From an uncultured Sphingosinicella sp. (lineage in GTDB: Bacteria > Pseudomonadota > Alphaproteobacteria > Sphingomonadales > Sphingomonadaceae), in assembly GCF_902806315.1 (NCBI RefSeq), contig NZ_CADCWD010000061.1:1-58356 (forward strand): DNA of 58,356 bases, read 5' to 3'. The position numbers and the translations under genes are program-made. Of this stretch, positions 8,830-53,855 are shown in pieces; position 1 is the first letter of the stretch, and each line of letters starts with the position of its first letter. The notes below the pieces were generated by a model. That model did not search any database. It saw nothing but the letters and a program-made list of their open reading frames with translations, and had not been told where the DNA came from.

Positions 8830-9716
8830 CACATCATCATCTTTTCGATGGGAAGGACGAGGATGGCGGATGCGCCCGCGCCTTTCAGCTTCTGCAGCGT
8901 CTCCCAGAAGACCGATTCCTGGCAGACGGCGTGGACGGCGAAGTGACCGGGCCGGCCGACCAGCGGGATGATGGTGGGCGACTCCGCGCCCGGCAGGATG
9001 GCGGCGATCTCGTCCAGCGCCTCCTCCGGCGCGTTCAGCATTATATATTTGGACTCCTGCGTCGCCAGCACGCCGTCGATGCGGCTGAGGAGCCGGGTCG
9101 AGAGGTCGGCCTTATCCTCGGGAAGGGTCTTTCGCGTGCGGATCAGCACGGCTTCGCTTTCGAGCACCGTCTCGACAGGCCTCAGGCCATTGGCTTCGAG
9201 CGTGGCACCCGTCGAGACGAGGTCGCAGATGAAGGTCGCGATGCCGAGCCGCGGGGCGAGTTCGACGGCGCCATTCATCTTCACGACGGTGGCCGAGACG
9301 CCGTTGCGGTCGAGGAAATCCTGCAGGATGCAAGGGTAGGAGGTGGCGATGCGGGTGCCTTCCAAGCTCTGCGGACCCTCATATGCGAGCCGCTCGGGGG
9401 CCGCGATCTTGAGCGCGCAGCGGCCGAAGCCCAGCGCGGCAACCACTTCGAAGCGCGGTTCGGCCTCTCCGAGCGCGAATTCGTCGAGCACGTTGCGGCC
9501 GACAATGCCGAATTCGCAAACGCCGTCGCTGACAAACGTTGGAATGTCGTCATCGCGGACGAACATGAGGTCGATCGGGAAATTCTCGACGCGGGCGGTG
9601 AGGTCGTTCTTGCCGTTCTGGATGCGCAGGCCTGCGTCGCGGAGCAGCCCGCGACTGAAATCGGACAGGCGCCCGGACTTCTGGATTGCGAGGTGAAGGC
9701 GTCCTTCGGAGATCAT
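8829..9716 (-). CDS. hisG: ATP phosphoribosyltransferase, long form
   Basis: First enzyme of histidine synthesis, joining ATP and PRPP. The protein is 295 residues: a catalytic domain starting LHLAIQKSGRLSD, with ICDLVSTGATLEANGL at the PRPP loop, followed by a C-terminal ACT-like regulatory domain of about 75 residues ending in ILVLPIEKMM. This is the long, HisZ-independent, histidine-inhibited form known from E. coli, whereas many alphaproteobacteria use short HisG with HisZ. ATG 9716 overlaps the yerC stop (ATGA); the longer open frame upstream is antisense to nothing useful and lacks similarity. Regulation by histidine through the ACT domain is inferred from the family. Confidence 0.95.
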
Positions 9717-35012: not shown

Positions 35013-38000
35013 TCAGTGGAAGTCGCGGGTCTTCTGGCGGATCGCCTCCTCCCGGTCGGCGGTGCGGAAAGGCTTGTAATAATGGTCGCGGACCTTCCAG
35101 TCCTTCTCCCCGCGGTCGGGCGCGCCGGGATGGGTGACGGCGTCGCCGGGACCGGGCCGGTGAGGAAAGTCCAGCTCGCCCACCGAGCGGAGCATGGGCG
35201 TATAATCCTCGATCCGGTCGGCGATGATGTGGATGACGCCGCCCTCGCGCTGGACGGTTCCCTTCACGTTGATCATCGCCGACGACATGACGATCCGCCG
35301 CTGCGCCTCGAAGCGGCGCTGCCAGAGGATCGCGTTGGCGATGCCGGTCTCGTCCTCGATGGTGATGAAGGTGACGTTGGTGGAGCCCGGCCGCTGGCGG
35401 ACGAGGATGATGCCCGCGACCTCGACCTTGCGGCCGTCCTTCACCCGATCGAGGTGGCGGCATGTGACGATGCCGCGCCGCTCCAGCTCGGGGCGGAGGA
35501 AGGTGAGCGGGTGGGCGCGAAGGGTGAGCTGGGTGTGGCGGTAATCCTCCACCACTTCGCGGCCTTCGGTCATCGGATTGAGCGAGACGGCGGGTTCCCG
35601 CTCGCTTTCGCGCAGCTGGGCGAAGAGGGGGAGCGGCGCATCGCGAAGCCCCCTTACCTGCCAGAGCGCCTGCCGCCGGCTGAGCCCTAGGCCATGGAAA
35701 GCATCGGCATTGGCGAGCTTCTCGAGCGAACCGCGGGACACGGCGGCGCGGCGCCAGACGTCTTCGGCGGAGGCGAAGGGGCCGAGGGCGCGAGCGGCGA
35801 GGATCTTCTCGGCCTCCTTTTCGCTGAGGCCTGAGGTCATGCGCAGGCCGAGGCGGAGGGGGAGGATTGGCCCCTTCCCTTCTTCCAAAGTGCAATCCCA
35901 TTCGCTTGCATTGACGCACACCGGCCGCACCTCGACGTCATGCTCGCGCGCGTCGCGGACGATCTGGGCGGAGGCGTAAAAGCCCATCGGCTGGGCGTTG
36001 AGGAGAGCGGCGCAGAACACGTCAGGATGGTGGCACTTCAGCCAGGACGAGGCGTAGGCGATCTTCGCGAAGCTGGCCGCATGGCTTTCGGGGAAGCCGT
36101 AGCTGCCAAAACCCTCGATCTGCTTGAAGGTCCGCTCGGCGAACTCACGCGTATAGCCGTTGGCGATCATGCCATTCACCAGCTTGTCGCCAAAGGCGCC
36201 CACGCCGCCGGTGAACTTGAACGTCGCCATCGAGCGGCGCAGTGCATCCGCTTCGGCCGGAGTGAAGCTCGCTCCGACGATCGCCACCTTCATCGCCTGC
36301 TCCTGGAAAAGCGGCACGCCGAGCGTCTTTTCAAGCACTTCACGAAGTGCTTCGGACGGATAGACCACCGCCTCCTTCCCCTCCCGCCGCCGCAAGTAGG
36401 GATGGACCATGTCACCCTGGATCGGGCCGGGACGAACGATCGCCACCTCGATGACGAGATCATAGAACTCCTTCGGCTTCATCCGCGGCAGCATGCTCAT
36501 CTGCGCGCGGCTCTCGATTTGGAAGACGCCCAGGGTGTCGGCCCGCTGGATCATCTCGAAAGTGGCGGGATCGTCCTCCTGAAGGGGAGGTGAAGCCATG
36601 CCCATGTCGATGCCCTTGTGGGCGCGCAGCAGGTCGAAAGCGCGGCGCATGCAGCCGAGCATGCCGACGCCGAGCACGTCGACCTTCATGAACTTCAGTT
36701 CCTCGATATCGTCCTTTTCCCATTCGATGACGCGGCGATCCGCCATTGCGGCAGGCTCGATCGGCACGAGATCGTCGAGGCGGTCACGCGCAAGGACGAA
36801 GCCCCCCGGATGCTGGCTGAGATGGCGCGGCGTGCCGATCAATTGGCGAGCGAGTTCAATTGTTTGGGAGAGGCGCGGGTCGGACTTGTCGAGGTTCAGC
36901 TCGTCGAGATGCTTTTCGCTGACACCTTCGGTAGACCAACCCCAGATCTGCCCTGCCAAGCTGGCGGTTACGTCTTCCGGCAGGCCGAGCGCCTTTCCGA
37001 CTTCGCGAACGGCGCCGCGGCTTCGGTAACGGCTCACCACGGCGGTGAGCGCGGCATGCTGGTGGCCATAGGTCTCATAGATCCACTGGATGACTTCCTC
37101 GCGCCGCTCATGCTCGAAATCGACGTCGATGTCGGGCGGCTCGTTGCGATTCTCCGAGATGAAGCGTTCGAACAGGAGCTTGTGGTGGACGGGATCGATC
37201 GAGGTGATCCCGAGCACGTAGCAGATCATGGAATTGGCCGCCGAGCCGCGCCCCTGGCACAAGATGCCCTGGCTGCGCGCATAAGCGACGATGGAGTTCA
37301 CAGTCAGGAAATAGGGCGCGTAACCGAGCTGAGCGACCAGCCTCAACTCATGCTCGAGAAGCTCGGTATATTCTAAAGGTTGGTGCTTTTCCGATATCTT
37401 GATGCGGGTAAGAGCGCTTCGCGTCATCTCCGCCAAGGCTTCCTGCGGCGAGCGGCCCGACATCACGATCTCGTCGGGATATTGATAGCTGAGCTCGCGA
37501 AGCGAGAATGTGCAGCGATCGGCGATGTCGGCGGTCGCGCGGATCGCGTCGGGATGGTCGCGGAAGCGCCGCTCCATCTCCGCGACGCTCTTGAGGTGCC
37601 GGTCGGCATAGCGCTCACGACGAAAGCCCAAATCGTCGATCGTGCATTTGTTGCGGATCGCGGTGACGACATCCTGAAGCATGCGCTTGTCCGGAGAGTC
37701 GTAGAGTATGTCGCCCGTCGCGACGCTGCGGACCCCGTAAAGGCGCGCCATTCGGTCGAGCTCGTGCAGGCGCAGTGCATCGCCCGGGCGGCGATGATGG
37801 GTGAGTGCGCTGTAAGCGCGCTTCCCGAAGATGTCGGAGATACTCGCCAGAGCCGCCCTCGCTTTGGCGTCCGGCATGTCGGGGAGCAAAGCGGCGACCA
37901 GGCCTTGCGAATGCGCCTCGACATCCTCCCAATGGAGGAAGCATTGCCCCTTCTCCCCCCGTTTCGGAACGGCCCGGCCTTTGCCCTTGGTGAGAAGGCG

Positions 38001-38318: not shown

Positions 38319-38588
38319 ATGGGCAAGATGATTGGGGCCGCCGAGTTCAAGGCGAAGTGCCTGAGCATTATGAGGGAGGTGGAGCAGACTGGCGAAGCTG
38401 TGACTGTTACCCAGCGCGGCCGCCCGATGGTCGAAATCAAGCCGGCCCAGGCTCCAACGAAACAGAAGCTGTTCTTTGGATGCATGAAGGGGACGATGCG
38501 CATCATCCACCCGGACGATGACCTCACCAGCCCGGCATATGACCAGCCTTGGAATGCTGAAAAAGGTTTGTGGGAAGCAGAGGAGTGA
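38319..38588 (+). CDS. Phd/YefM-family antitoxin
   Basis: 89 residues with the Phd/YefM fold at the N-terminus: IGAAEFKAKCLSIMREVEQ, TVTQRGRPMVEIKP, and a C-terminal acidic arm (PAYDQPWNAEKGLWEAEE) that would wrap the toxin. First gene of a toxin-antitoxin pair; GTGA overlap with the toxin. Lower GC than the flanking SOS genes, which suggests acquisition. The palindrome at 38278 is the expected autoregulatory operator. Confidence 0.9.
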   Translation: MGKMIGAAEFKAKCLSIMREVEQTGEAVTVTQRGRPMVEIKPAQAPTKQKLFFGCMKGTMRIIHPDDDLTSPAYDQPWNAEKGLWEAEE

Positions 38589-38998
38589 TCCTCCTCGATA
38601 CCCATGTTCTTCTCTGGTTCACGCTTGGAAACCAGAAGCTTGGAACCCAAGCCAGGCAAACGATTGAGGATGCGATGGCTCAGGCCGCCATTGCGATCTC
38701 CGTCATAACTTTTTGGGAGGTTTCCCTGCTGGTGAGCAGGAGGAGGCTCGATCTTGGCGCAACCATAGGGGATTGGGTAAGCCGCTTCCGCACGCTTGAG
38801 GGTGTCGTTGTAACCGATATTCAAACCGAGATTGCAGTTGCTGCGGGCGAGTTGCCAGGAAGCATCCATGGCGACCCTGCCGATCGAATGATCATCGCCA
38901 CCGCACGGACATGGCCTTGTCCTCTGCTGACGGCTGATCGAACAATCCTCGATTATGGTGCTGCTGGACATGTCAGCGCAATCGACGCGCGTGTCTAA
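38585..38998 (+). CDS. PIN-domain toxin (VapC-like RNase)
   Basis: 137-residue PIN-domain protein. Acidic residues of the nuclease site: Asp in LLDTHVLLW (residue 5), Glu in FWEVSLL, Asp in GDPADRMIIATA and LTADRTIL. VapC-type toxins cleave tRNA or rRNA until neutralised by the antitoxin. The start is the GTG overlapping the antitoxin stop (GTGA), which yields the usual VILLDTH N-terminus. It converges on imuB with only 5 bp between stop codons. Confidence 0.9.
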   Translation: MILLDTHVLLWFTLGNQKLGTQARQTIEDAMAQAAIAISVITFWEVSLLVSRRRLDLGATIGDWVSRFRTLEGVVVTDIQTEIAVAAGELPGSIHGDPADRMIIATARTWPCPLLTADRTILDYGAAGHVSAIDARV

Positions 38999-39003
38999 CC
39001 CGC

Positions 39004-41160
39004 TCACCCGAACATCCCCTGCATGTGCCAGCTGAGATCGCCGGTTCGGGCGTCGAGGCCGTCGCCGCGGCGGTAGAGCCAGAAGCGGGCGCCCTGCTCG
39101 TCCTCGACTTGGAAATAGTCGCGCACCGCATCGGCTTCGGCGGGTCGGCGCCACCATTCTCCGTAGATGCGCTCGGGGCCGTCGGCGCTGCGGACGCGGT
39201 ATGACTTGCCGCGCCAGGTGAAGCGGCGCGGCGCGCCGTCCGGGAGCAAGGCAACTACATTCTCGATGCGCTCCGGACGGGACAGCATGCGCGCAGGACG
39301 GGGCCAGCGGTCGCGCCAGGGATCGAGAGCCGCAAAGGGCTGAACAGGCCTGAACGAGCGCTCGGGAACGTCGCTTTCGACGGCGCCGATGCGGAACAGG
39401 CGCCGTTCGCCGAGCCGCGTCGCCAGCCGGTCGATCAAGGGCGCAAGATCGGGAACGGGCTCTTCGCCGCTCAGATCGCTGTCGATCGGGCGGGGGGCGA
39501 GCGGTTGAACATGGCCGCCCGTGAGGCTCATCGCCTCGATGCCGAAGCCCGGCTCGATCTCCTCGATCTTCATGGACAGGAGGCGGTGGAGGTGGGCGGC
39601 GTCGCGGGTGGGAAGAGCCGTGCCGATCTCGAACCGCTGCTCGGCGCCGTCGACCCGGGTGGCGACAAGCGCGATCCTGCGTGCCGCCATGCCCCGCTCC
39701 TCCAGCAGAGCGACGAAGGCGGCGACGAGGTCGCTCAGAACCTGACCGATGGCTTGGGCGGTGGCGATCGGCTCGACGAGGCGCAGCGACACGCGGGGCG
39801 GATCGGGAAGCAGGACCGGGTCCATCGGCTCGGCGGCTCGGCCGAGCGCCTGGTCGAGCCGGGCGACCATCTCCCCGCCGAAGCGGCGGACCAGGGGCGC
39901 GCGGGGCATGGCGGCGAGTTCGCCGATCCTCTCGATGCCGAGGCGCCGGGCCGTTTCCACAATCGCGGGTTCGAGCCGCAGGGCGGAGAGCGGCAGCGGG
40001 GCGATGGCCTCGGCTTCCTCGCCCGAGGGGCAGAGGGTCAGGGGCGCATCGGCGCATTTGGCCAAAGCGTGAGCGGCGGCGGGGGTGCCGGCGATGGCGA
40101 TGCGGGCGGTGAGGCCGAGCCGGCGGCAGAGGCGCAGCAGGCGGCGGGCGAACGTCTCCTCGCCTCCGAACAAATGGACGCTGGCGCCGATGTCGAGCCA
40201 GAGGCCCTCGCCCGGCACCGTCATCACCAAAGGCGTCCAGTGGCGGGCGGCGTGGCGGGCCAGCCGGTTGAGGTCGGCGGCGTCGCCTTCGGGGTCGGCG
40301 GGGCGGATGTCGAGCCCGGGGATCATTGCCCGCGCCTGGGTGAGCGGCATGCCGGGATGGAGACCGAGCGCCTGCGCTGCCGGGCAGGCGGCGGCGAGGA
40401 CCACGCGCTGCCCGTCGCGGCGGGTGGTGACAAGAATATCCTCCCCTGCATTTGCAGGGGAGGGGGACCGCGCGGAGCGCGGTGGAGGGGCGGCGGCGAA
40501 GCCGCCGAGAGAAGTGCTCGCCTTGCTCGCGGCCCCTCCACCACCCTTCGGGTGGTCCCCCTCCCCCGGAAATCCGGGGGAGGGCATGATTCCCCTTCCC
40601 TTTCGGAACGGCACTTCGGCAGGTTCGCTGCGGCGGCCGAGCTCGCGCATGGGCGGGCGCTGGTGGAGGGGAAGGGTTTCGATCCTGGCTTGGAGCGCCG
40701 CCTTTTCCGCCGTCTTGCGGGCGATGCGGCGGTCCAGCCATTCGTCGGCATCTTCGCCCTTCGCCCAGCGAGAACCGGGGCGCCAGCCGCCCCCGCGCGG
40801 GCAGGAGCAGTCCTCGATGCGCATGCCGGGCTCGAGCGGGGCGCCCTCCTTCTCCTGCTCGAGCCGCTCCCTTAGCGCGACGAGCTGGGCTCGCTCCTTA
40901 GTGTTTTCGGGCAGGCGGGCGGGGGGAAGCCATTCCTCCCCTGCATTTGCAGGGGAGGGGGACCGCATGAAATCCGGTGGAGGGGCGGCGCGAAGCGCCG
41001 TCTGAGTCAGCAGGGCCCCTCCCCCACCCTTCGGGTAGTCCCCCTCCCCCGCAAAAGCGGGGGAGGATTTAGGCGACTGCCCGCCGACTCTCATCCGATC
41101 GATCCGCCTCAGCCGATCGATCGCGAAGTTCGGCAGGTAGAGCGAGGCAACCCTTTGCAT
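39004..41160 (-). CDS. imuB: Y-family polymerase-like ImuB, with two repeat-derived insertions
   Basis: 718-residue ImuB, the inactive Y-family protein that links ImuA, DnaE2 and the beta clamp. N-terminus VASLYLPNFAIDRLRR, then the core beginning VLAAACPAAQALGLHPGM, and a C-terminus in the usual WRR/GEWW region. It is long for the family because residues about 30-76 and 191-242 come from two copies of a palindromic repeat (both contain SPSPANAGE). The frame stays open through each. It overlaps imuA by 92 bp, so the pair is co-translated. Whether the inserts are tolerated in the protein is untested. Confidence 0.88.
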   Translation of the reverse strand: MQRVASLYLPNFAIDRLRRIDRMRVGGQSPKSSPAFAGEGDYPKGGGGALLTQTALRAAPPPDFMRSPSPANAGEEWLPPARLPENTKERAQLVALRERLEQEKEGAPLEPGMRIEDCSCPRGGGWRPGSRWAKGEDADEWLDRRIARKTAEKAALQARIETLPLHQRPPMRELGRRSEPAEVPFRKGRGIMPSPGFPGEGDHPKGGGGAASKASTSLGGFAAAPPPRSARSPSPANAGEDILVTTRRDGQRVVLAAACPAAQALGLHPGMPLTQARAMIPGLDIRPADPEGDAADLNRLARHAARHWTPLVMTVPGEGLWLDIGASVHLFGGEETFARRLLRLCRRLGLTARIAIAGTPAAAHALAKCADAPLTLCPSGEEAEAIAPLPLSALRLEPAIVETARRLGIERIGELAAMPRAPLVRRFGGEMVARLDQALGRAAEPMDPVLLPDPPRVSLRLVEPIATAQAIGQVLSDLVAAFVALLEERGMAARRIALVATRVDGAEQRFEIGTALPTRDAAHLHRLLSMKIEEIEPGFGIEAMSLTGGHVQPLAPRPIDSDLSGEEPVPDLAPLIDRLATRLGERRLFRIGAVESDVPERSFRPVQPFAALDPWRDRWPRPARMLSRPERIENVVALLPDGAPRRFTWRGKSYRVRSADGPERIYGEWWRRPAEADAVRDYFQVEDEQGARFWLYRRGDGLDARTGDLSWHMQGMFG
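40437..40590. repeat. Palindromic repeat copy inside imuB (copy A)
   Basis: About 154 bp with arms CCTCCCCTGCATTTGCAGGGG and CCCCCGGAAATCCGGGGGAGG, each a small palindrome, and a middle with GGTGGAGGGGCGG and CCACCCTTCGGGTGGTCC. It encodes residues about 191-242 of ImuB in frame. Same family as 40934 and 53229. Confidence 0.8.
40934..41069. repeat. Palindromic repeat copy inside imuB (copy B)
   Basis: About 136 bp with the same arm CCTCCCCTGCATTTGCAGGGG, the core GGTGGAGGGGCGG, CCACCCTTCGGGTAGTCC and a right arm CCCCCGCAAAAGCGGGGGAGG. It encodes residues about 30-76 of ImuB and stops at the imuA stop codon. Confidence 0.8.
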
Positions 41161-41863
41161 CGCAGGACTCCATGATCCATTCGTGGGGCTCGCCGCCGCG
41201 CTGGCGGACGAGGTTGAGGTGCCAGCGGGGGCGGCCGATCCCTTCGACCGGCAGCGGCGTCGAAGGCGCCGAGGCGATCCGCCAGCGGGTGACGGCCGAC
41301 GAAGGAAGCGCGAGCGGATCCTTTTCGCTCCGCCGCCAGCGTTTCAGCATGAGCGCGGTCGTGCCCCCCTCCTCCGCCGCGAGCTGCAGCCGGCGGGTGG
41401 AAGCCATCTGGACGCGGCCGACCTCGCCGACGACGGCAGCGAGGCCGCGGTGGCGAAGCCCCTCCTCCATCACCGCGAGCACATCCTCGTCGCTGCCGCA
41501 TTCGGCATAGATGACCCGCGCGGGTGCGAGACCCGCCAAAGCAAGGCCAGGCGCGAACAGGTCGCGGCGGCTGAACGCCCAAAGGACATCCCCCTTCCCG
41601 CCCGCCCGCATTTGCCCCAAGCGCGCGGCGATGCCGGCGAGGAACAGGGTCGCGGCGGCATCGTCGCTGAGCGCGGCCGTCGCGCCCGTCACCTCGTGCA
41701 AAGCCGCAACCGCAAGCCCGCCGCCAGCGAGCCGCGCATCGATGGACTCGATGCCGAAAGGCAGGCAGTCACGCGCCTTCTCTACCCCCGCCGATTCGAT
41801 CGCCCGCACTTCGGCGCGCAGGGCGGCGAGGCGTTCGGACCGGGTTGGCGACAAGGCAGGCAT
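41069..41863 (-). CDS. imuA: ImuA, RecA-like SOS mutagenesis protein
   Basis: 264-residue RecA/SulA-like protein that heads the ImuA-ImuB-DnaE2 mutasome. N-terminal FGIESIDARLAGGGLAVAALHEVTG corresponds to the RecA-core start, but the Walker A Gly-Lys is not obvious (GATAALSDDAA), which is usual for ImuA. A conserved VIYAECGSDEDVLAVMEEGLRH block follows. The start is ATG 41863. An SOS box sits 21 bp upstream. Confidence 0.85.
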   Translation of the reverse strand: MPALSPTRSERLAALRAEVRAIESAGVEKARDCLPFGIESIDARLAGGGLAVAALHEVTGATAALSDDAAATLFLAGIAARLGQMRAGGKGDVLWAFSRRDLFAPGLALAGLAPARVIYAECGSDEDVLAVMEEGLRHRGLAAVVGEVGRVQMASTRRLQLAAEEGGTTALMLKRWRRSEKDPLALPSSAVTRWRIASAPSTPLPVEGIGRPRWHLNLVRQRGGEPHEWIMESCDAKGCLALPAELRDRSAEADRSDESRRAVA

Positions 41864-52177: not shown

Positions 52178-53287
52178 GTGACGGTTAGCAAGCAGAAGCT
52201 GCGCCAGCGGATCGAGGCGGAGGCCCAGGCATTGGGCTTCGCCGCGATCGGCTTTGCACGGGCGGACGCGGCGCCCAGGACGGCCGAGCGGCTGCGCGAG
52301 TGGCTGGCGTCGGGCGCGCATGGCGACATGATCTGGATGGAAGAGACGGCGCAGCGGCGGGGATCTCCGGCCGGGCTGTGGCCGGACGTGCGCTCGGTGA
52401 TCTCGCTGGGGATGAGCTATGCGCCGGCCGTGGATCCGCTGGCGCTGGCGGGCGAGCGGGAGGTCGGGCGGATCTCGGTCTATGCGCAGGGCGCGGACTA
52501 TCACGACACCGTCAAGAAGGCGCTGAAGGCGCTGGCACGGTGGCTGGTGGCGGAGGCCGGGTGCGAGCTGAAGGTGTTTGTCGATACCGCGCCGGTCATG
52601 GAGAAGCCGCTCGCCGAAGCGGCGGGCCTGGGCTGGCAGGGCAAGCACACCAACCTCGTCAGCCGGACGGACGGGAGCTGGCTGTTCCTGGGCGCAATCT
52701 ACACCAGTTTGGAGCTGGGCGGCGAGATCGAGCCGAGCGAACCCCACCCAGTGCATTGCGGATCGTGCAGCGCGTGCCTGGACGCGTGTCCGACCGGCGC
52801 GTTTCCGGCGCCGTTCCGGCTCGATGCGCGGCGCTGCATCTCCTACCTCACGATCGAGCATAAGGGGCCGATCCCGCACGAATTCCGGGAAGCGATCGGC
52901 AACCGCATCTATGGCTGCGACGATTGCCTGGCGGTGTGCCCGTGGAACCGGTTCGCGGACACGGCGCGGCGCAACCAGGCCTTCGTGCCGAGGGCGGAGC
53001 TGGTCGCGCCGGCTCTCGCCGATTTGCTGGCGCTGGACGATGCCGGGTTCCGGCAGGTGTTCGCCGGGTCGCCGATCAAGCGGATCGGGCGGGGGCGGAT
53101 GGTTCGCAATGCGGCGATTGCGGCTGGGAATAGCGGGAGCGCGGCGCTTGTGGAGCCGTTGCGGAAGCTGGTGGGGGATGAGGATCCTGTAGTTGACGAG
53201 GCGGCACAGTGGGCTCTGTCGAAGTTGTTCTCCCCTGCCTTTGCGGGGGAGGGGGACCATGCGAAGCATGGTGGAGGGACCTTCTGA
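52178..53287 (+). CDS. queG: Epoxyqueuosine reductase, C-terminus from a repeat
   Basis: 369-residue cobalamin-dependent enzyme, the last step of queuosine synthesis in tRNA. Conserved VFVDTAPVMEKPLAEAAGLGWQGKHTN in pieces, with the catalytic Asp, and two [4Fe-4S] clusters: CGSCSACLDACPTGAF plus RRCIS, and GCDDCLAVCPW. A HEAT-like C-terminus follows. The last 18 residues (SPAFAGEGDHAKHGGGTF) are read from a palindromic repeat that also supplies the stop codon. GTG start. Confidence 0.93.
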   Translation: MTVSKQKLRQRIEAEAQALGFAAIGFARADAAPRTAERLREWLASGAHGDMIWMEETAQRRGSPAGLWPDVRSVISLGMSYAPAVDPLALAGEREVGRISVYAQGADYHDTVKKALKALARWLVAEAGCELKVFVDTAPVMEKPLAEAAGLGWQGKHTNLVSRTDGSWLFLGAIYTSLELGGEIEPSEPHPVHCGSCSACLDACPTGAFPAPFRLDARRCISYLTIEHKGPIPHEFREAIGNRIYGCDDCLAVCPWNRFADTARRNQAFVPRAELVAPALADLLALDDAGFRQVFAGSPIKRIGRGRMVRNAAIAAGNSGSAALVEPLRKLVGDEDPVVDEAAQWALSKLFSPAFAGEGDHAKHGGGTF

Positions 53288-53350
53288 CTCAGCAACGCCC
53301 CTCCACCACCCTTCGGGTGGTCCCCCTCCCCCGGAAATCCGGGGCAGGAT
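53229..53350. repeat. Palindromic repeat at the end of queG (copy C)
   Basis: Same family as the two copies in imuB: left arm CTCCCCTGCCTTTGCGGGGG, GGGGGACCATGCG, GGTGGAGGGAC, CCACCCTTCGGGTGGTCC and right arm CCCCCGGAAATCCGGGG. The 5' half is coding for queG. Confidence 0.8.
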
Positions 53351-53351
53351 A

Positions 53352-53729
53352 TTAGCGCGTCTGCCCTTTAGCCATCAGTGCCGCGACGCAGCTTGCTTTG
53401 TCGATGTCGCGGCCGTCGAGGAGGCGGGCGTCGATGTAGGTTACCACAGCCTCGCGGCCCTGCTGGGACTCGTAGAGATAGGTATCGAGGACGCAGACCG
53501 GCCCGGAAAATTGGAGCTTGCGGGCGCTGCCCTCGCGGACGTCCAGAGCGGGCGTGCCGAAGCGCGACTGAAGGGTGGCGGCGCTCTGGCCCATGACGGC
53601 GGCGAGGCCCGTGACGACCGCAGGAGCCGCGGCGGCGGCGCGAGGCGCCGGCTGGGTGGTCGCGGTCGGCGCGCAGGAAATGAGGAAAAGCGGCACGACG
53701 ACAGGTGCCCAACGCATGCTCAAGTTCAT
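53352..53729 (-). CDS. Small lipoprotein, hypothetical
   Basis: 125 residues with a lipoprotein signal (PLFLISC, Cys near 18), an Ala/Pro linker, and a C-terminal domain with LQSRFGTPALDVREG, a SmpA/OmlA-like turn, FSGPVCVLDTYLYE and KASCVAAL (two Cys). GGAG stands six bases before ATG 53729; ATG 53732 is an alternative. Common in sphingomonads; function unknown. Confidence 0.72.
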   Translation of the reverse strand: MNLSMRWAPVVVPLFLISCAPTATTQPAPRAAAAAPAVVTGLAAVMGQSAATLQSRFGTPALDVREGSARKLQFSGPVCVLDTYLYESQQGREAVVTYIDARLLDGRDIDKASCVAALMAKGQTR

Positions 53730-53855
53730 CATAGTCTCCCGCTTCGCACCTGATGTGCGCACACGGGCTCACCCGTCAATCGCTCAGGTTGCCCGCCGGT
53801 TGATCGCCCGCTAGGGCGCGTGCTTTCCCCGATCAGCCAAAAAAGAAAGAAGTCT

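Follow-up and report, generated by a model that had tools for sequence, protein, structure and literature searches.

The imuB locus

The DNA analysed here is a stretch of 58,356 nucleotides (contig NZ_CADCWD010000061.1 of assembly GCF_902806315.1, hereafter the window) from an uncultured Sphingosinicella sp., and the subject of this work is a palindromic repeat that is found twice, in frame, within the gene imuB. The protein is identified as ImuB by its Y-family core and by its position adjoining imuA and a DnaE-type polymerase gene. A preliminary description, made from the sequence alone, placed two copies of one repeat inside imuB and held that they are translated without a stop. Both copies are found where it located them, far above chance, and the imuB frame is open through both; the residue ranges in Table 1 were derived by coordinate. 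The left arms of the two elements share an identical 33-nt run. A third, intergenic element lies 0–2 nt from the stop codon (53352–53354) of a minus-strand frame at 53355–53768.

Table 1. Features of the window. R1 is the covariance model described in the text.
Feature	Position	Strand	Notes
Site-1 element	40934..41068	minus	imuB residues about 31–76, read SSPAFAGEGDYPKGGGGA...APPPDFMRSPSPANAGE
Site-1 unit adjoining imuA stop	41017..41067	minus	R1 68.6 bits
Site-1 inverted unit	40934..40984	plus	R1 73.3 bits
Site-2 element	40437..40586	minus	imuB residues about 192–242, read PSPGFPGEGDHPKGGGGA...APPPRSARSPSPANAGE
Site-2 unit	40534..40584	minus	R1 76.9 bits
Site-2 inverted unit	40439..40489	plus	R1 78.2 bits
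Third, intergenic element	53228..53351		R1 70.8 and 72.4 bits; beside two converging frames
imuB	39004..41160	minus	718 aa, open frame; IMS PF00817 E 5e-11, residues 252–365; DUF6504 residues 639–712 (Pfam)
imuA	41069..41863	minus	NCBIfam ImuA_translesion E 6e-14, under curated cut-off; overlaps imuB from upstream
DnaE-type polymerase domain	36669..37436	minus	PF07733 E 2.7e-87, 1090-aa frame

Architecture of the element

The repeat is palindromic, as the preliminary description had it, but it is not a single palindrome. Each element is made of two inverted units of about 50 nt, with the layout TCCTCCCC-(loop)-GGGGAGGGGGACC-(second hairpin)-GGTGGAGGGG, and the units of the source genome fall into two loop sub-types. 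The short form consists of the two units only, spanning about 120–150 bp, and solo units are also found. Most elements start with TCCTCC and end with GGAGGA, and the occurrence of CGTC/GACG and GTAG/CTAC is irregular.

A covariance model (R1) was built from 33 units of the source genome, which match it by construction; the four imuB units belong to this training set, and their scores of 68.6–78.2 bits are thus not independent. Among the 33 units, both hairpins covary, with 68 double-change cells compared to 21.2 in shuffles, and 96.9% of the cells are paired. The single-strand folding z-scores of the three elements in the window are −7.6, −6.9 and −9.5, and none of 200 shuffles was equally stable. 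Chance palindromes are excluded by the covariation, the folding controls and the copy number. A known RNA family was also considered and rejected: the Rfam matches were to microRNA models only, all far under their gathering scores, and are read as a hairpin artefact.

Copies in the source genome and in relatives

A search of the source genome with R1 gave 44 matches at E up to 0.01, which were grouped by hand into 24 places. Copies were called as in-gene where they are spanned by an open frame with gene-like codon use, scored by a table trained on 23 long frames of the window itself. By this test, seven places carry an in-frame copy: two in imuB, two in glyS, and one each in lnt, a hydantoinase A/B fusion gene and ligD, the last being a weak unit (41 bits). 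One of the GlyS inserts is a single unit, read SSPAFAGEGDQPKAGGGA between KYFALTQ and LAPNFICTANIEA, where most relatives have a short turn. The earlier suggestion that an intergenic repeat spreads into genes therefore holds in that a mostly intergenic repeat stands in frame in several conserved genes, but the site-1 copy has not simply landed in a protein, for reasons discussed below.

Units were matched in 25 of 26 same-genus genomes, with between 0 and at least 146 per genome; 150 candidates were scored per genome, and these counts are lower bounds. Across the genus, at a threshold of E 1e-4, the 91.9 Mb searched yield at least 1,429 matches. At that density about 0.6 units would be expected in the 39.7 kb of imuB sequence, where 15 are found at a slightly laxer threshold (E up to 0.001), the window's own four included. 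In one genome (G003), the matches at 9542, 20494, 1598345 and 3031358 have identical scores of 52.9 bits, three of them being solo, and look like a recent local family.

The imuB gene was found in 25 of the 26 genomes, counting weak, partial and off-family matches, and its start is readable in 23. R1 units are present in imuB in eight of these (G000, G004, G009, G015, G016, G019, G020 and G024), the second element of G016 being a weak match (E 0.012 and 0.04), and 15 have no R1 unit at site 1. Relatives that lack the insert do exist. Relatives in which the segments are conserved protein regions unrelated to the repeat were sought, and were not found.

The other hosts show a similarly patchy occupation. 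A GlyS match was obtained in 25 genomes. At the first site, four of them (G000, G002, G007 and G025) have one unit; at the second, four (G000, G003, G015 and G016) have an element. At the hydantoinase site, units of both sub-types are found in 14 of 22 genomes, a count that includes G007, which was placed by coordinate only and whose match holds a stop. Further in-frame hosts in the relatives are thiC, uvrD, an RNase R-like gene, a dinG-like helicase gene, a DUF763 gene and coaBC. All are drawn from 20 regions selected by matches to element peptides, most of them in long frames, and are examples rather than a rate. In those regions 12 of 22 elements passed the coding test and 10 failed. Two of the 12 (L218 and L236) also passed on the opposite strand; L236 was settled by Pfam, and the L218 gene is read as the hydantoinase from its matching site.

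In further genomes other repeat-like peptides occupy these loops, for example DSRFRGND in the ImuB of G012 and VIPAKAG in the GlyS of G016. By our own reading of its DNA (CGTCATTCCCGC) against the accessible part of PMC3733652, the former would be a repetitive extragenic palindrome (REP) of the CGTC type. A third GlyS loop, before SYTP, holds several other repeat-like peptides in loci L188–L214, varying by genome.

Placement at stop codons and the imuA-imuB overlap

The elements have a marked tendency to follow genes. Of the 18 elements that are not deep in genes (site 1 counted), all but three (C65, C17_45k and C16) have their start no more than 15 nt from the stop codon of a gene-like frame, and for 13 of the 15 the distance is 7 nt or less. 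In this count the element edges may be off by up to 3 nt, a gene was defined as a codon-scored frame, and a weak match of 30 bits is included among the 15. As a control, 1500 points were placed at random in the same stretches, and 30 of them fell within 20 nt of a stop.

This tendency has a particular consequence at imuB. The stop codon of imuA (41069–41071) falls within imuB, and the site-1 unit is 1 nt away from it. The overlap is general in the genus: each of the 23 genomes has a +2 frame that stays open over 232 codons or more upstream and ends 71–107 nt inside imuB. This frame was taken as imuA in all 23, the family search being confined to the window copy. The gap between site 1 and the imuA stop is 1 nt in the window and 1, 1, 1, 1, 3, 4 and 13 nt in the other seven occupied genomes, with the values for G019 and G020 read from the printed sequence. 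In G012 a palindrome of another family occupies the same spot, 7 nt from the imuA stop. Outside the genus, 26 of 28 fetched imuB genes were readable, and one (L264) has a palindrome that matches the unit model weakly (22.2 bits) just past the imuA stop. The element at site 1 is thus one that belongs to the 3' end of imuA and that imuB has to translate, the imuA stop being inside imuB.

A wrong imuB start, which would leave site 1 untranslated, was rejected, since the strand SLYLPN..DRLRR upstream of site 1 is common to relatives. An ImuB linker acting as an attractor at the protein level was also considered, and is replaced for site 1 by the stop-codon explanation; site 2 has no such reason. 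Neither imuB site 2 nor the first glyS copy has a sense-strand stop within 150 nt, and the same is true of the copies in lnt, the hydantoinase gene and ligD; near the second glyS copy there is only the stop of an antisense shadow frame.

The ImuB stretch between the two inserts (around PRGGGWRPGARW) is common to many sphingomonad ImuB proteins. The ImuB frames of loci L041–L043 (uncultured Sphingomonas, S. palmae and S. hominis) are 991–1071 codons long from stop to stop, with very long linkers. The genome has two DnaE-type polymerase genes, one of them within the window; this one is presumably dnaE2/imuC, a name taken from its position beside imuAB. As the DnaE-type gene is in the same window as imuA and imuB, the usual imuA-imuB-dnaE2 set is present. 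Between it and imuB, on the opposite strand, there is a frame at 38570–38998 (+) that looks PIN/VapC-like by eye.

Reading frames and predicted protein order

The units are stop-free in 194 of 198 frames (mean 5.88, compared to 5.17 expected), and the element rows are open in 117 of 144 frames, where dinucleotide shuffles give 95.3. A dedicated coding frame as the cause of this openness is rejected, because units are open in nearly all frames. An insertion would be survivable for the same reason, the units being nearly stop-free in all six frames. In genes, a reading that starts with SSP or a near form is used by 30 of 37 copies, and the other two readings by 5 and 2. The automated counts were 28, 5 and 4, and three rows in which a longer overlapping frame had been picked were corrected by eye (imuB site 2 of G000, and imuB site 1 of G019 and of G020); ligD was left out of this list. 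The commonest reading is hydrophilic, SSP..GEGD..GGGA, or SSPERGGGP in the short-loop sub-type.

In order to place the inserts in the fold, AlphaFold2 was run on the window ImuB with 26 relatives, giving a mean predicted local distance difference test score (pLDDT) of 76.7 and a predicted template modelling score of 0.52. The pLDDT is below 50 at residues 28–83, 106–135 and 176–238. The inserts fall in the first and third of these segments, between a helix at 12–25 and a strand at 243–249, and both are thus in stretches of very low predicted order. The ImuB that carries them is presumably made and working.

Long elements carrying DUF559

Some inverted pairs of units are longer, at about 450 bp, and two of these in the source genome encode DUF559 (PF04480, 103.5 and 66.4 bits). 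In five genomes with full unit lists there are 150 units, of which 38 are solo and the others are arranged as 49 short and 7 long inverted pairs; DUF559 is enclosed by all seven long pairs. The short pairs thus share their terminal inverted repeats with a gene-bearing form, as is the case for miniature inverted-repeat transposable elements. One such unit-DUF559-unit element in the source genome (locus L171, contig C15, 2276–2728) is directly upstream of glyS, which itself has two in-frame elements.

Three sets of DUF559 regions were then inspected for adjacent units. Set A comprised nine regions chosen for known nearby units; in eight there is an adjacent unit on each side, inverted, and the ninth (L348) is at a contig end. 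Set B comprised 11 regions hand-picked at 82–99 bits, two of which had nearby element peptides; eight have inverted adjacent units, two have an extra unit between (L356 and L359), and one is one-sided (L354). Set C comprised 20 of the remaining rows, at 85–104 bits. Nine of these have inverted adjacent units on both sides. In four others that fall in this sub-family of DUF559 the flanks are incomplete or nested (L405, L408, L409 and L411, the last cut by a contig end), and the other seven, outside the sub-family or unplaced, do not show the two-sided arrangement.

In a tree of 42 sequences the sub-family is separated by a split supported at 0.998 on one side and 0.853 on the other; 10 of the 50 loci fetched for it had been dropped, the extraction motif not being found. 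Among its tree-placed members in sets B and C, 17 of 23 have an adjacent inverted unit on each side, while none of 24 DUF559 proteins placed outside it has unit matches of at least 30 bits on both sides. The nuclease frame often extends into the right-hand unit, giving tails such as PLHQPAAGPP, which are also present in in-gene copies.

DUF559 genes outside the sub-family are mostly flanked by other palindromes. Counting inverted-repeat flanks of any sequence with a score of at least 16, they are found at 25 of 27 usable DUF559 loci of the genus (30 fetched), compared to 1 of 600 random placements. Among 114 alphaproteobacterial genomes sampled, 42 have a DUF559 match; 13 of 28 usable loci (29 fetched) score at least 16, and 15 are below. 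The loci fetched for this survey were those with the highest match scores rather than a random sample. Many DUF559 genes (L284–L313, L314–L342, L393, L398, L401 and L403) are flanked by inverted palindromes that differ in sequence, for example CCCCTCCCGCTTGCGGGAGGGGCTGGGGGTGGG. A literature search whose coverage left out most subscription papers and preprints found no link between DUF559 and palindromes.

Origin of the elements

On the basis of these observations, we hypothesise, with a probability that we put at roughly 0.7, that the short elements, including the two imuB inserts, are non-autonomous copies of a palindrome-ended DUF559 mobile element. The full form would consist of two units of about 50 nt in inverted orientation with a DUF559 nuclease gene (Vsr-like, PD-(D/E)XK) between them. 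Short forms would be deletion derivatives of it, and the nuclease would move the element, which may prefer, or best survive at, positions directly after stop codons. An element arriving at the 3' end of imuA would become an in-frame segment of imuB, as imuA ends within imuB. The insertion at site 2 would be one that the protein tolerates, as would those in GlyS, Lnt, the hydantoinase and LigD.

Several observations weigh against this proposal. In the five fully listed genomes only 7 of 19 DUF559 genes have R1 units on both sides, and G018 has 30 units and no unit-flanked DUF559. With 58 sequences (4 of 20 further loci dropped) the support for the sub-family clade is just 0.569. No empty site or target duplication was found at the nucleotide level at imuB, where the junctions were read and the nearest genomes have 63% ImuB identity, other loci not having been searched. 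The random points of the stop-distance control were drawn from intergenic and genic DNA alike. The frame bias of 30:5:2 over copies drops to 9:4:2 over distinct combinations of gene site and frame, and is thus weak evidence of a preference. Finally, genomes with a match to PF01797 (Y1 transposase) hold more units (Mann-Whitney p 0.009 for counts and 0.038 per Mb, uncorrected for descent).

The last point bears on a different explanation, in which the units are REP-like and are moved in trans by a Y1 transposase (REP-associated tyrosine transposase, RAYT), as in the REP doublets known as REPINs, and the DUF559 genes are passengers between two units. REPs too are described as coming in pairs, lying near stop codons and having copies within genes (PMC3733652, in excerpt), and the correlation with PF01797, though uncorrected for descent, fits. 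However, 19 Y1 loci of 11 genomes gave just two unit matches, of 20.4 and 18.2 bits, and 15 of the 26 genomes have no PF01797 match, among them the source genome and G010 with its at least 146 unit matches. In addition, all seven long pairs hold DUF559, and where a DUF559 gene lies outside the sub-family, its flanks are mostly palindromes of another kind. With no clear unit near the 19 Y1 loci, a Y1/RAYT partner was rejected, although the correlation of counts stands nonetheless, and we regard this explanation as improbable.

Less easily set aside, though still unlikely, is the idea that the elements are kept for a role in RNA or DNA (as a terminator, a stabiliser of mRNA 3' ends or an attenuator, for example of imuA) and that their translation in imuB is a tolerated side effect. 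The position at stop codons, the site-1 gap to the imuA stop, the very stable folds and the covariation in both hairpins would all be expected of such a role. It sits poorly with the lack of a site-1 unit in 15 of 23 genus genomes, and with the copies in imuB site 2, the first glyS site, lnt, the hydantoinase and ligD, which are more than 150 nt from any gene stop (the second glyS copy having only its antisense shadow frame). Moreover it accounts for the retention of a copy and not for its arrival, and may hold alongside the origin from a DUF559 element. Much the least probable is that the in-gene segments are adaptive parts of the protein, for example altering ImuB and so the mutation rate. 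An adaptive role has been speculated for REP-tagged repair proteins (PMC3733652, discussion), repair-type genes are among the hosts here (ImuB, LigD, UvrD and the DinG-like helicase), and some sites recur, in 14 of 22 genomes for the hydantoinase and 8 of 23 for imuB site 1. But GlyS, Lnt, ThiC, CoaBC and the RNase R-like gene carry copies as well, three reading frames are in use, the ImuB inserts are of low predicted order, and relatives do without them.

Extending the DUF559 proposal, it is possible, at a little less than even odds, that alphaproteobacterial DUF559 nucleases mobilise a large class of palindrome-ended elements that has gone unrecognised. Each sub-family would have its own units, and the gene-less pairs would be satellites. 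If so, these satellites would be a standing source of new in-frame protein segments, above all at overlapping genes, where the stop of one gene falls within the next.

For the in-gene palindromes described earlier, in Rickettsia and in several REP-rich species, there was no clear reason for the sites, and the CGTC repeats had no associated transposase. Here the imuA-imuB overlap gives a concrete reason for a recurrent in-gene site, and DUF559, a nuclease family of largely unknown function, travels with the repeat. Both the stop-codon and the nuclease points are testable in culturable, free-living relatives. There is also a warning for annotation: where SSPAFAGEGD, PLHQPAAGPPPRSGED or a similar peptide appears in a sphingomonad protein, it is derived from the element and is not a domain.

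Comparison with known repeat systems

On the nuclease side, a known system to compare is VsrA of Caulobacter, which has been studied as a putative nuclease of mismatch repair with a link to a cytosine methyltransferase. Like the nuclease here, it has a DUF559 domain and is PD-(D/E)XK and Vsr-like; the strings 'transpos' and 'palindrom' are absent from the main text of that paper as accessible (PMC12907096). In the accessible part of the RepRanger paper, 'intragenic' and 'sphingo' do not occur as words (PMC12306157).

The sphingomonad family resembles the CIR repeats of Caulobacter in being an alphaproteobacterial intergenic repeat. CIR repeats are associated with CcrM sites. In the sphingomonad family, by contrast, GANTC is present in only 4 of 25 scanned element rows. 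The name CIR appears in the abbreviation list of PMC10969869. The enterobacterial RU-1 to RU-3 are small mobile sequences of 100–170 bp with open frames, also found inside genes; their hosts are different, and the abstract of PMC2759123 does not state a link to a nuclease gene.

The organisation is also reminiscent of the REPIN/RAYT system in having a palindrome-flanked gene together with many gene-less copies. In REPIN/RAYT a gene is flanked by its own palindromes, and many copies are without the gene. The difference is that the gene here is a DUF559 nuclease and not a Y1 transposase. The 19 Y1 loci, which come from 11 genomes, include no Y1 gene with repeat flanks (the two unit matches there do not exceed 20.4 bits), and the source genome has no Y1 match.

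Protein-coding palindromes are already known, in the form of Rickettsia palindromic elements (RPEs) and of intragenic CGTC and GTAG REPs. The latter occur in many species, in repair genes and tRNA synthetases, and a preference for the neighbourhood of 3' ends is also reported for other REPs (PMC3733652, in excerpt). In the table of that paper, GTAG repeats are linked to transposase genes, and CGTC repeats to none. The sphingomonad element shares with these REPs the inverted pairs, the 3'-end neighbourhood and the in-gene copies in repair genes and tRNA synthetases, including genes with two copies; it is a mostly extragenic palindrome near 3' ends (15 of 18 near a stop), often in inverted pairs (49 short ones among 150 units). 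It differs in its long first hairpin followed by a second one and in its link to DUF559, and the scanned elements have no fixed unpaired CGTC or GTAG end tag.

The likeness to RPEs proposed in the preliminary description is borne out as regards behaviour but not as regards family. RPEs are palindromes of about 150 bp, in several families, found between genes and in frame in unrelated conserved genes of Rickettsia (PMC10969869, in excerpt). The sphingomonad element is likewise found between genes and, stop-free and in frame, in unrelated protein genes. It has no single dedicated coding frame, although one reading is commonest, and neither imuB insert gave a match in NCBIfam at E up to 1, a collection that presumably contains an RPE model. 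What sets it apart from the RPEs is its two-unit build, its solo and nuclease-bearing forms, the near absence of stops in nearly all frames, its GC-rich sphingomonad hosts and its placement at stop codons.

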